Shown in pieces: positions 34,467-36,951 of a stretch of DNA of 36,951 nt; the stretch's first letter is position 1; every line of letters starts with the position of its first letter. Where the stretch lies: positions 1 through 36,951 of the forward strand of contig JABDFL010000009.1 in NCBI GenBank assembly GCA_013286575.1, written 5' to 3'. Both the position numbers and the translations under genes were made by a program. Origin of the DNA: Candidatus Omnitrophota bacterium (lineage in GTDB: Bacteria; Omnitrophota; Gorgyraeia; Zapsychrales; Fredricksoniimonadaceae). Under the pieces are notes generated by a model that saw nothing but the letters and a program-made list of their open reading frames with translations, ran no database searches and was not told where the DNA came from.

Positions 34467-35462
34467 ATGACAAGCACGGGTGTAGGTGTCATTAATGATA
34501 AAGTTAAAAAAGAAGCGGGTGTTATTGATGCGATACGCTTTGAAACATCCAAGGTGATGGTTGGCCAGAGTGTATTGATAGACCGTCTGTTGATCGGCAT
34601 ATTGGCCAACGGCCATGTTTTAGTCGAGGGAGTGCCGGGCCTGGCCAAGACCACCGCCGTCAAGACCCTGGCCCAGACCATACAGGCCAAATTTCAGCGC
34701 CTGCAGTTTACTCCTGATATGCTGCCTGCGGATTTGACAGGCACGCTCATCTATGACCAGCGTACCGGAGCGTTTAATGTTAAAAAGGGCCCTGTTTTTG
34801 CCAATATCATCCTGGCCGATGAAATCAACCGCGCACCTGCCAAGGTGCAGAGCGCCTTGCTGGAAGCCATGCAGGAACGGCAGGTCACCATTGGGGAAGA
34901 GACTTTAAAATTGGATGATCCGTTTTTAGTTTTGGCCACTCAAAACCCTATTGAGCAGGAAGGCACCTATCCTTTGCCTGAAGCCCAAGTAGACCGCTTT
35001 ATGCTTAAAGTGAAAATTACCTATCCCACTAAAGAAGAAGAATTAAAAATCCTCAAACGCATGGCCAAGACCGGCCAGTCGTTTTCTGTGCAGGCGGTTG
35101 CTTCCCCGCAGGACATTATCCGGCTGCGTTCGGTGGTGGATGAAATTTACATGGATGAAAAGATCGAAGATTATATTGTCCAAATTGTAGAAGCGACGCG
35201 TAATCCTGAACAGTATAAACTCAATGATTTAAAGGGATTGGTCCTTTATGGAGCAAGCCCGCGGGCCACGATCAATTTAGCATTAGCTGCCAAGGCCCAC
35301 GCGTTTATCCAGGGACGGGGGTTCGTGACGCCGCAGGATGTCAAGAGCATCGGCATGGACGTCCTGCGCCATCGCGTCATCCCTAGCTATGAGGCAGAAG
35401 CTGAGGGTAAGACATCGGAGGACTTGGTTAAGAGAATATTAGACCAAGTCGAAGTGCCGTAG
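34467..35462 (+). CDS. MoxR-family AAA+ ATPase
   Basis: A 331-residue AAA+ chaperone-like ATPase. Walker A 'VEGVPGLAKTT' lies near residues 53-63, Walker B 'IILADEINRAP' near 114-124 and sensor 1 'VLATQNPIEQEGTYPLPEAQ' near 155. The C-terminal lid ('GASPRATINLALAAKAHAFI') is typical. MoxR proteins work with VWA and DUF58 proteins in envelope or metal-centre assembly; a DUF58 gene lies downstream and a VWA/TPR operon opens this window. Ribosome site AAGGAGAGG is part of the structured RNA leader. Its partner gene is separated from it by 710 bp of inserted material. Confidence 0.95.
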   Translation: MTSTGVGVINDKVKKEAGVIDAIRFETSKVMVGQSVLIDRLLIGILANGHVLVEGVPGLAKTTAVKTLAQTIQAKFQRLQFTPDMLPADLTGTLIYDQRTGAFNVKKGPVFANIILADEINRAPAKVQSALLEAMQERQVTIGEETLKLDDPFLVLATQNPIEQEGTYPLPEAQVDRFMLKVKITYPTKEEELKILKRMAKTGQSFSVQAVASPQDIIRLRSVVDEIYMDEKIEDYIVQIVEATRNPEQYKLNDLKGLVLYGASPRATINLALAAKAHAFIQGRGFVTPQDVKSIGMDVLRHRVIPSYEAEAEGKTSEDLVKRILDQVEVP

Positions 35463-35467
35463 CGTTA

Positions 35468-35620
35468 TATTCGGCCATTGTGTTTTTTTCGAAGGTAGTG
35501 GAAGGCTGCTTGGGCACGGTCCGCGAACGTTCAGTTCGCGGCCAAGCAGCCTGGTGACTAGCGATGCCGCACCGCAGGGTGCGGCGAGCGTGCCTGAGAA
35601 GAAAATACAATGGCCGAATA
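35468..35620 (+). repeat. 153-bp structured element with 14-bp terminal inverted repeats
   Basis: Perfect terminal repeats TATTCGGCCATTGT (35468-35481) and ACAATGGCCGAATA (35607-35620). Inside, GGCTGCTTGG (35504-35513) pairs with CCAAGCAGCC (35542-35551) and encloses a hairpin CCGCGAAC/GTTCGCGG (35521-35541). Another hairpin, GCCGCACC/GGTGCGGC, lies at 35566-35585. GGCACG and CGTGCC (35513-35518 region and 35589-35594) could add a long-range pairing. No ORF with recognisable function. It begins 6 bp after the moxR stop. Confidence 0.75.
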
Positions 35621-35637
35621 GAACACCTAATGTTCAT

Positions 35638-35712
35638 GTGTCATTGCGAGAAGCGTAGCGATGAAGCAATGACACAACTGTTTGACGGCCAAGAAGCAGG
35701 GGATATTGACAC
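35638..35712 (+). repeat. Partial repeat: inverted A remnant and B-type unit
   Basis: GTGTCATTGCGAGAAGC, a shortened right end (GAAGCAATGACAC), then a B-type unit containing TTGACGGCCAAGAAGCAGG and ending ATATTGACAC. It lies before the GIY-YIG gene. Confidence 0.75.
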
Positions 35713-35737
35713 GCCAAACATTATCCAATTTTTTAAC

Positions 35738-36028
35738 ATGCTTACTAAACAATACTATGTATATTTTTTGACGAATTTTACTAATAAAGTTATTTATGTT
35801 GGTGTGACGAATGATTTAAAACGCAGGGTCTATGAACATAAGCATGGTTTAGTTGATGGATTTACCCGAAGCTATCACGTAAATAAGTTGGTTTATTATG
35901 AAGTTGGTCAAGACATTGAAGGGGCAATATTGAGGGAAAAGCAGATTAAAGCTGGATCTAGAAAAAAGAAAGACGGGCTTGTTAAGAAATTTAATCCTGA
36001 TTGGGAAGATTTATATGATCGGTTGTAA
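35738..36028 (+). CDS. GIY-YIG nuclease-domain protein (UPF0213/YhbQ-like)
   Basis: A 96-residue protein starting at ATG 35738; a longer frame upstream is built from repeats and the structured element. The GIY-YIG core is present as 'YYVYFLTN' near residue 6 and 'VIYVGVTNDLKRRVYEHKHG' near residue 20, with the catalytic Arg (LKRR) and a Glu in 'GAILREKQIKAGSRKKK' near 67. Such small proteins are often single-domain nucleases of unknown use and are frequently exchanged between genomes. The gene is AT-rich compared with moxR and DUF58, has no ribosome site, and is flanked on both sides by repeats, which fits an inserted gene. Confidence 0.92.
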   Translation: MLTKQYYVYFLTNFTNKVIYVGVTNDLKRRVYEHKHGLVDGFTRSYHVNKLVYYEVGQDIEGAILREKQIKAGSRKKKDGLVKKFNPDWEDLYDRL

Positions 36029-36068
36029 AAGATTGCTTCGTCGCCCTTCGGGCTCCTCGCAATGACAC
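36027..36068 (+). repeat. Repeat unit A after the GIY-YIG gene
   Basis: Unit A with inner hairpin GCCCTTCGGGC, overlapping the stop codon of the GIY-YIG gene by two bases. It leads directly into the 23-bp tandem array. Confidence 0.85.
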
Positions 36069-36160
36069 GAGTAGTAGTATCACAATGATACGGGTAGTAG
36101 TGTCGCAATGATACGGGTAGTAGTATCGCAATGACACGGGGAGTAGTATCACAATAAGAC
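36069..36160 (+). repeat. Tandem repeat, four units of 23 bp
   Basis: Units start at 36069, 36092, 36115 and 36138 with pattern GGGTAGTAGTATCGCAATGA followed by (C/T)AC. Each ends like the right end of unit A (CGCAATGACAC). There are no spacers between units. The last unit is the most diverged. Confidence 0.8.
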
Positions 36161-36172
36161 GTAGAAACGAAT

Positions 36173-36951
36173 ATGATACCTAAAGATATACTAGAAAAAA
36201 TTCTGCGGATTGATATTACGACCAACCGTTTGGTGACGGATGTGTTTGCCGGGGCCTATCATAGTGTGTTTAAGGGGCGGGGGATGGAGTTTGATGAGGT
36301 GCGGGAGTACCAGCCGGGTGATGATATCCGCTCCATTGATTGGAACGTCACGGCGCGCACCGGCTTTGCGCATATTAAAAAGTACGTGGAAGAGCGTGAG
36401 CTGACTGTCATGATTCTGGTGGACACCTCCGCATCGGTGCATTTTGCCTCCACCGGCCAGATGAAAAATAAATTGGCGGCGGAGATCGCGGCGGTGTTGG
36501 CATTTGCGGCAATACGCAATAATGACAAGGTGGGCTTATTGATGTTCACGGACGAGCCGGAACTTTTTATCCCCCCTAAAAAGGGAAAGTCTCACGTCTT
36601 AAGGGTGATCCGTGAGATCTTGTATTTTAAGCCCCGCGCCAAAGCCACTAATTTGCCCAAGGTGCTGGAATTTTTGACAAAGGTGCTTCGCCGTAAATCA
36701 ACGGTCTTTGTTATTTCTGATTTTCTGGATCCCAATGCGGATTATGGCCCCATACGTAAATCCATGCGCATTGCCGACCAACACCATGATCTCATTGCCA
36801 TCACCCTGACAGACCCGCGGGAGATGGAATTGCCGGATTGTTCCCTGGTTGAAGTCAAGGATGCGGAAACAGGGGCGCGGATGGTCATTGATACTTCTGA
36901 CAAACGCCTGCGTCAGGAATATCATGCAAAAGCGGTTGGCCTTATCAAAAA
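36173..36951 (+). CDS. DUF58 family protein (3' end outside window)
   Basis: The frame runs from ATG 36173 to the end of the window without a stop, so at least 259 residues. The DUF58 signature 'GRGMEFDEVREYQPGDDIRS' with 'IDWNVTARTG' lies near residues 39-70. It is followed by a VWA-like fold with 'MILVDTSASVHFAS' (D-x-S-x-S, MIDAS-type) near residue 82 and 'TVFVISDFLDPNADY' near 181. DUF58 proteins are the standard partner of MoxR ATPases. The gene starts 13 bp after the tandem repeat, with only a weak AGAAACGA ribosome site. No membrane helix lies in the visible part. Confidence 0.9.
   Translation, partial: MIPKDILEKILRIDITTNRLVTDVFAGAYHSVFKGRGMEFDEVREYQPGDDIRSIDWNVTARTGFAHIKKYVEERELTVMILVDTSASVHFASTGQMKNKLAAEIAAVLAFAAIRNNDKVGLLMFTDEPELFIPPKKGKSHVLRVIREILYFKPRAKATNLPKVLEFLTKVLRRKSTVFVISDFLDPNADYGPIRKSMRIADQHHDLIAITLTDPREMELPDCSLVEVKDAETGARMVIDTSDKRLRQEYHAKAVGLIK

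Follow-up and report, generated by a model that had tools for sequence, protein, structure and literature searches.

Palindromic elements have been reported in Wolbachia as well as in Rickettsia, and the Bacillus cereus group carries the bcr1 repeats, which are structured, dispersed, about 155 bp long and provided with a direct TTTAT duplication. The Rickettsia palindromic elements are multi-copy sequences of about 105-150 bp, with terminal inverted repeats and a high degree of base-pairing; they lie both between genes and in frame inside conserved protein genes, and neither their mobilising enzyme nor a duplication is known (PMC2229807, PMC10969869). Prokaryotic MITEs (Correia/NEMIS, ERIC, RUP, QMITE) are small and non-coding, with terminal inverted repeats, an intergenic bias and predicted transcripts that fold strongly (PMC10969869). 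Finally, REPs are 20-40 bp long (PMC3733652).

The element described here, from a Candidatus Omnitrophota bacterium, resembles each of these systems in part. The Rickettsia palindromic elements are its closest working parallel: both are palindromic multi-copy repeats of 100-150 bp, and both are found in frame inside conserved genes (here queA, recG and lnt). However, the hosts belong to different phyla, and the core pattern, which was our means of comparison, picked out no Rickettsia locus among 84,980 species. The Rickettsia elements are moreover described with a conserved peptide frame, whereas ours has none; what it conserves is the core of a three-way junction, specific to one strand and containing tandem GA mismatches. 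As neither the sequence nor the conserved peptide is held in common, we do not file it as a Rickettsia palindromic element.

In the loose sense, the duplication apart, the element is a MITE (terminal inverted repeats, less than 500 bp, no transposase of its own), and it is like the prokaryotic MITEs in size, non-coding nature, ends, strong predicted folding and intergenic bias; but MITE recognition is thought to rest on the terminal repeats and to leave duplications, whereas here the ends diverge and the core is conserved. With bcr1, compared by description only, it has size, structure and dispersal in common, the TTTAT duplication being the difference. Like the REP/RAYT systems it is a dispersed extragenic palindrome with single-strand polarity, but those carry a GTAG or CGTC tag beside one hairpin, while ours is 4-7 times longer, multibranched and without a constant tag. 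With structured RNAs, lastly, it has in common covarying base pairs together with conserved unpaired motifs.

The element and its junction

The window, by which we mean the whole stretch of 36,951 nucleotides that was analysed, contains one copy of the element, whose parts are listed with their neighbours in Table 1. The preliminary description had reported perfect 14-bp terminal inverted repeats and nested hairpins, and these are indeed present: the repeats are TATTCGGCCATTGT (35468-35481) and ACAATGGCCGAATA (35607-35620), nested in a 32-nt arm pair that is 84% complementary; the inner stem, given there as 10 bp, has 11 bp and carries one of 8 bp on top (35521-35528/35534-35541); and the 8-bp hairpin that stands apart lies at 35566-35573/35578-35585. 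A long-range pairing of GGCACG with CGTGCC, put forward there as a possibility, has to be abandoned, for its 5' side varies among copies (GGCACG, GGCATG, TGC-CG, AGC-TG, GGCAAG) against an invariant CGTGCC, and TGCCT pairs instead with AGGYA in 100% of cells. As RNA, the element folds at -96.3 kcal/mol, against -52.6 +/- 4 for dinucleotide shuffles (z = -10.9), and 0/200 shuffles folded as well.

Table 1. Parts of the element and neighbouring genes in the window (cells are alignment pair cells; + is the strand of the conserved fold)
Feature	Position	Strand	Remark
moxR (AAA ATPase), upstream gene	34467..35462	+	Pfam AAA_3, E 2.6e-66
Whole element	35468..35620	+	covariance-model match, 175.8 bits
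P1 5' arm (outer stem / terminal inverted repeat)	35468..35490	+	helix 1
Tandem G-A mismatch (Py-GA-Pu), 5' GA	35491..35492	+	GA/GA in 14/14 genus copies
P1b 5' strand AGGTA (partner TGCCT)	35493..35497	+	100% of cells paired
P2a 5' strand	35503..35513	+	compensatory change in 5/11 pairs, 100% paired
Asymmetric internal loop GCACGGT	35514..35520	+	GGGCAYGGTTC in distant families
P2b apical hairpin, 8 bp	35521..35541	+	sequence and length vary
P2a 3' strand	35542..35552	+	partner of P2a 5' strand
GC-GA at P3 base (second tandem G-A)	35561..35564	+	GYGA-type motif
P3 hairpin, conserved apical CGCAGG/CGCTGG loop	35566..35585	+	4/8 pairs compensated in genus
GAGCG closing P3 base (GA of tandem G-A plus GC)	35586..35590	+	64/66 distant copies
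P1b 3' strand TGCCT	35591..35595	+	pairs with AGGTA
Tandem G-A mismatch, 3' GA	35596..35597	+	partner of 5' GA
P1 3' arm	35598..35620	+	pairs with P1 5' arm
GIY-YIG endonuclease gene	35738..36028	+	Pfam, E 2e-15
DUF58, downstream gene, open at window end	36173..36949	+	Pfam, E 2.5e-80

The placement between moxR and DUF58 is right, as Pfam confirms, but a small GIY-YIG gene also separates the element from DUF58. The moxR stop codon precedes the element by 5 bp, and in four congeners (G001, G002, G005, G006) only 0-5 bp lie between the moxR stop and the DUF58 start. The GIY-YIG gene, absent from the junction in relatives (L135-L138), looks like an insertion separate from the element; palindromes of the form TCATTGCGAG...GAAGCAATGA, in inverted arrangement, bracket it within 35637-36110 (at 35637-35676 and just past its stop), and gene and palindromes together look like a small mobile gene unit of their own. 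In G003 the same junction (L134) carries an unrelated hairpin insertion of about 175-195 bp, AATATGGTTAAGCCGGT...ACCGGCTTAACCATATT, which recurs at L190 and L196. We also considered whether P1 could be an inverted copy of the host flank, and rejected this idea, the moxR flank of relatives having no TATTCGG.

As for coding capacity, the statement that the element has no reading frame of its own is correct if a frame conserved from copy to copy is meant: frames are open in all registers and lengths take all residues modulo 3. It does not hold to the letter, one antisense frame being open in the window copy, and open antisense frames are common across the family.

Copies, insertions and settings

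The genome of the window (1.32 Mb, 52% complete) has eight full copies, 76-100% identical to the one in the window, and blastn found three more in the congener G003, five in G006 and none in the other four, so that three of the seven genomes of the genus, the window's own included, are carriers (2/6 congeners). A covariance model made from 14 genus copies on the + strand recovered a single diverged copy elsewhere in the family, in another genus, and five copies among four other genera of the order. In the class, homologues that have diverged but retain the architecture occur in at least 34 of the 384 genomes, in about 20 families, a lower bound since the class search used strict prefilters. 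The possibility of a single-copy sequence with unconserved stems is clearly contradicted by these results.

When the P3-core pattern was run against 84,980 species, the matches were mostly in records named Candidatus Omnitrophota, the remainder including the MAGs CSMAG_1143 and CSMAG_1977 as well as STA_55, a MAG labelled Patescibacteria. STA_55 has at least five copies (L073, L074, L102, L104, L125) whose upstream flank is conserved over about 70 nt, which could reflect either inter-phylum transfer or a mislabelled bin. Pattern matches in Polyangium, Salinicola, Halobellus, Brevibacterium and others have no covariance-model match and are attributed to chance; a single match in a viral contig likewise lacks one. 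Phages and plasmids gave no copy by blastn. No family among the 4227 Rfam models matches the element, RF01383 overlapping one copy only as a sub-threshold chance match (E 0.47). Absence from a given genome is soft evidence, because most of these genomes are incomplete MAGs. We consider it probable that the 153-bp sequence belongs to a family of small mobile elements in Omnitrophota that had not been catalogued before.

Orthologous junctions were retrieved for 15 other genus copies. Where copies sit at L004, L011, L013, L016, L018 and L020, the genes of relatives overlap or adjoin; as these sites are empty in relatives, the copies are insertions, and the element, present several times at scattered places and missing from the matching junctions of relatives, behaves like a mobile one. 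Several filled junctions carry other repeats too, so the element is not always the sole insertion. A filled/empty pair from a distant lineage (L106 versus L113, flanks 86% identical) likewise points to insertion. The 16 genus copies share no target-site duplication of at least 4 bp at any common offset; in the L106/L113 pair a CTCC-type repeat of 4-6 bp is possible but ambiguous.

Some copies are decayed (L005, L036, L023), and at L036 (1501-1546) a 46-bp remnant consists of P1 only, which fits a deletion between GAAGG direct repeats. At L097, L084 and L119 (STB_56) copies stand in head-to-head pairs, 25-100 bp apart, with a spacer repeat common to at least two loci. At L007 (1501-1689) P2 contains an insertion of about 36 nt similar to CCGAGCAAGCAACAGGGRAT, a short repeat that the genus also has at L146 and L200. 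L150 and the right flanks of L003 and L018 carry a further structured repeat, about 224 bp long, whose ends are GTAAGGNNTAAATTTATTCTTTTCGC and GCAAAAAGAATAAATTTAGTCCTTAC and for which one strand again gives the better fold; congeners have yet another hairpin family, the fourth, which measures about 146 bp (ends GGCTGATATCGATATATTTTT...), at L144, L163 and L189.

The copies are mostly intergenic, in either orientation and often directly behind stop codons. No neighbour gene recurs and the flanking genes have no common function; relative to the element, the flanks are oriented ++ in 23 cases, -- in 32, -+ in 12 and +- in 6. With gene calls that are simple ORF calls near distant copies, 20 of the 39 genes ending at the 3' side of the element have their stop within 29 bp, and 7 of the 27 ending at its 5' side. 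Three copies are antisense inside genes whose frame stays open throughout. The insert occupies residues 275-325 of QueA, where the alignment to a PDB structure stops at 275 and restarts at 327; residues 500-555 of RecG, where the homologue alignment stops at 503 and restarts at 569, at a site that is a variable loop in relatives; and residues 95-147 of Lnt, the alignment restarting at 148. These copies look tolerated rather than encoded, because no frame is conserved across the family.

A three-way junction kept by compensatory change

The fold that unites the copies is a three-way junction, made of P1, the tandem GA, P1b, P2 with its GGGCAYGG loop and P3 with its CGCWGG loop, and it is kept by compensatory change. 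In a sequence-only alignment of the 14 genus copies (719 pair cells), 97.2% of cells hold standard pairs, against 36-44% in slid registers, and both sides have changed in 18 of the 52 pairs, including 6/21 in P1. Covariation scores 0.322, compared with 0.151 in shuffled alignments (0/500 reach it) and 0.045-0.082 for slid registers. Part of the covariation in P1 may be due not to selection but to template switching (quasipalindrome correction), by which one arm is copied from its partner; in one genome group most copies have a private P1 sequence, with both arms agreeing.

What is conserved most is not the stems. Between families conservation is lowest in the terminal repeats and highest in the internal non-paired core, the class core reading GAGCRGGnCGT ... 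CCGAGCGGGCAYGGTTC ... GAGCGAGG ... CCGAGCGAAG-P3-CGCTGG-P3'-CGAGCGTnCCTGCGA, again by alignment of letters only. The tandem G-A mismatches, the GGGCAYGG internal loop and the CGCTGG apical loop are kept across families, the internal loop ranking with the best-conserved columns when the whole class is aligned. By loose patterns, the GYGA-type motif ahead of P3 was found in 66/66 distant copies and the P3 loop motif in 80/80 copies, while P1b has GCAGGG/CCCTGC as its counterpart in distant families. Neither tandem GA/GA mismatch is lost, even though the register of one shifts by 2 nt between subfamilies.

The fold also has a polarity. Of the two strands, the core strand gives the better fold in 79/80 copies, and the + strand has 300 G-U pairs against 17 isolated A-C mismatches, a preference that is somewhat biased, since the model used to find the copies was itself derived from the + strand. 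The outermost varying dinucleotide of P1 is TC/GA in 7 copies, GA/TC in 4, GA/GA in 3 and TC/TC in none.

Explanations for the propagation of the element

The element has been mobile over evolutionary time, its fold is constrained and its strand has a polarity. The preliminary description had suggested that it could be of MITE type, or a structured RNA, or the two at once, which comes close to the data: the copies are dispersed and numerous, and they have a compensated, strand-specific conserved core. In our opinion this is probably a non-autonomous mobile element of about 150 bp, belonging to a class-wide Omnitrophota family, mobilised in trans, whose propagation selects for the strand-specific fold. 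Propagation would pass through a single-stranded form, RNA or single-stranded DNA, and the conserved core would be how a putative factor, encoded elsewhere, recognises the folded strand, which may thus be the recognition or catalytic entity of the process. Only copies that keep the fold would then spawn new ones; the freedom of sequence in the stems would let P1 drift towards subfamily- and copy-specific arms; and selection would spare those insertions that fall behind a stop codon or in a flexible loop of a protein. The size and complexity of the internal loops lean towards an RNA form, while the occurrence of copies in both orientations, with no constant flank that could act as a promoter, leans towards single-stranded DNA.

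The main competitor, which we regard as unlikely, is an ordinary MITE, the terminal repeats of which would be read as double-stranded DNA by a trans-acting DDE transposase, with hairpins that are incidental and arms matched by gene conversion or template switching. The size, the terminal repeats, the intergenic bias and the absence of a gene would all fit (PMC10969869, PMC2229807), and template switching, which copies one arm onto the other, could explain why the arms agree. However, recognition of the ends predicts the reverse of the conservation observed, in which the inner core is kept and the ends are free; the asymmetries of G-U over A-C and of GA/GA over TC/TC are strand-specific and are not predicted by double-stranded recognition; and no common duplication of 4 bp or more accompanies the copies.

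One could also think of a multi-copy functional RNA gene (an sRNA or a ribozyme), kept for the host and only incidentally moved or duplicated, given that the complex junction, the conserved unpaired motifs and the strong covariation are like those of structured RNA classes. We find this rather improbable: the distribution is patchy even within the genus (3/7 genomes, some MAGs being incomplete), the orientation is mixed with neither a constant promoter nor a constant neighbour, copies decay (L005, L036, L023) or lie antisense inside conserved genes, and Rfam has no match.

It is quite doubtful that we are dealing with a REP-like element moved as single-stranded DNA by a Y1 transposase of the IS200/IS605 type (RAYT). 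Y1 transposition would go with strand-specific hairpins and with copies that show no clear duplication, and GTAG lies near the P2 hairpin in most genus copies; but a GTAG or CGTC tag at the hairpin foot is not a feature of the family, GTAG being confined to genus copies and not conserved in other families. The ends of the element pair together instead of forming two separate end hairpins, Y1 is not in excess in carriers, and two genomes lack Y1_Tnp, G006 (94% complete) and G128, which is 95% complete and has at least six copies. Retrotransposition of a structured RNA by a host reverse transcriptase would account for an RNA-like fold kept without conservation of terminal sequence, but it is very improbable, RVT_1 being present in only 2 of the 27 carriers tested and absent from the single-contig carriers G104 and G182. 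With Y1 absent from two element-rich genomes and RVT_1 so rare, neither enzyme is a good candidate. Finally, that the element should be a transcription terminator or a 3' stabiliser of the upstream mRNA is hardly credible, in spite of the many copies 0-60 bp behind a stop codon, because copies occur in both orientations, within operons and inside genes, the stem is not followed by a T-run, and the same junction is empty in relatives.

Returning to the mobile element with a selected fold, we advance, tentatively and as a conjecture we would not bet on, that it may represent a new selfish class in which the folded single strand is the unit of selection. The three-way-junction core with its tandem GA would serve as the signal or the catalytic body for a novel mobilisation system, the terminal stems would need only to pair, and neither Y1, nor reverse transcriptase, nor recognition of terminal sequence would be involved.

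The family adds to the catalogue of structured nucleic acids one that is missing from Rfam, and it documents insertions into the conserved QueA, RecG and Lnt proteins in a little-known phylum. In-frame palindromic elements are described from Rickettsia and Wolbachia; here the many copies per genome, the class-wide diverged homologues and the measurable constraint on the fold make the question of how such elements move testable by structure-guided mutation.
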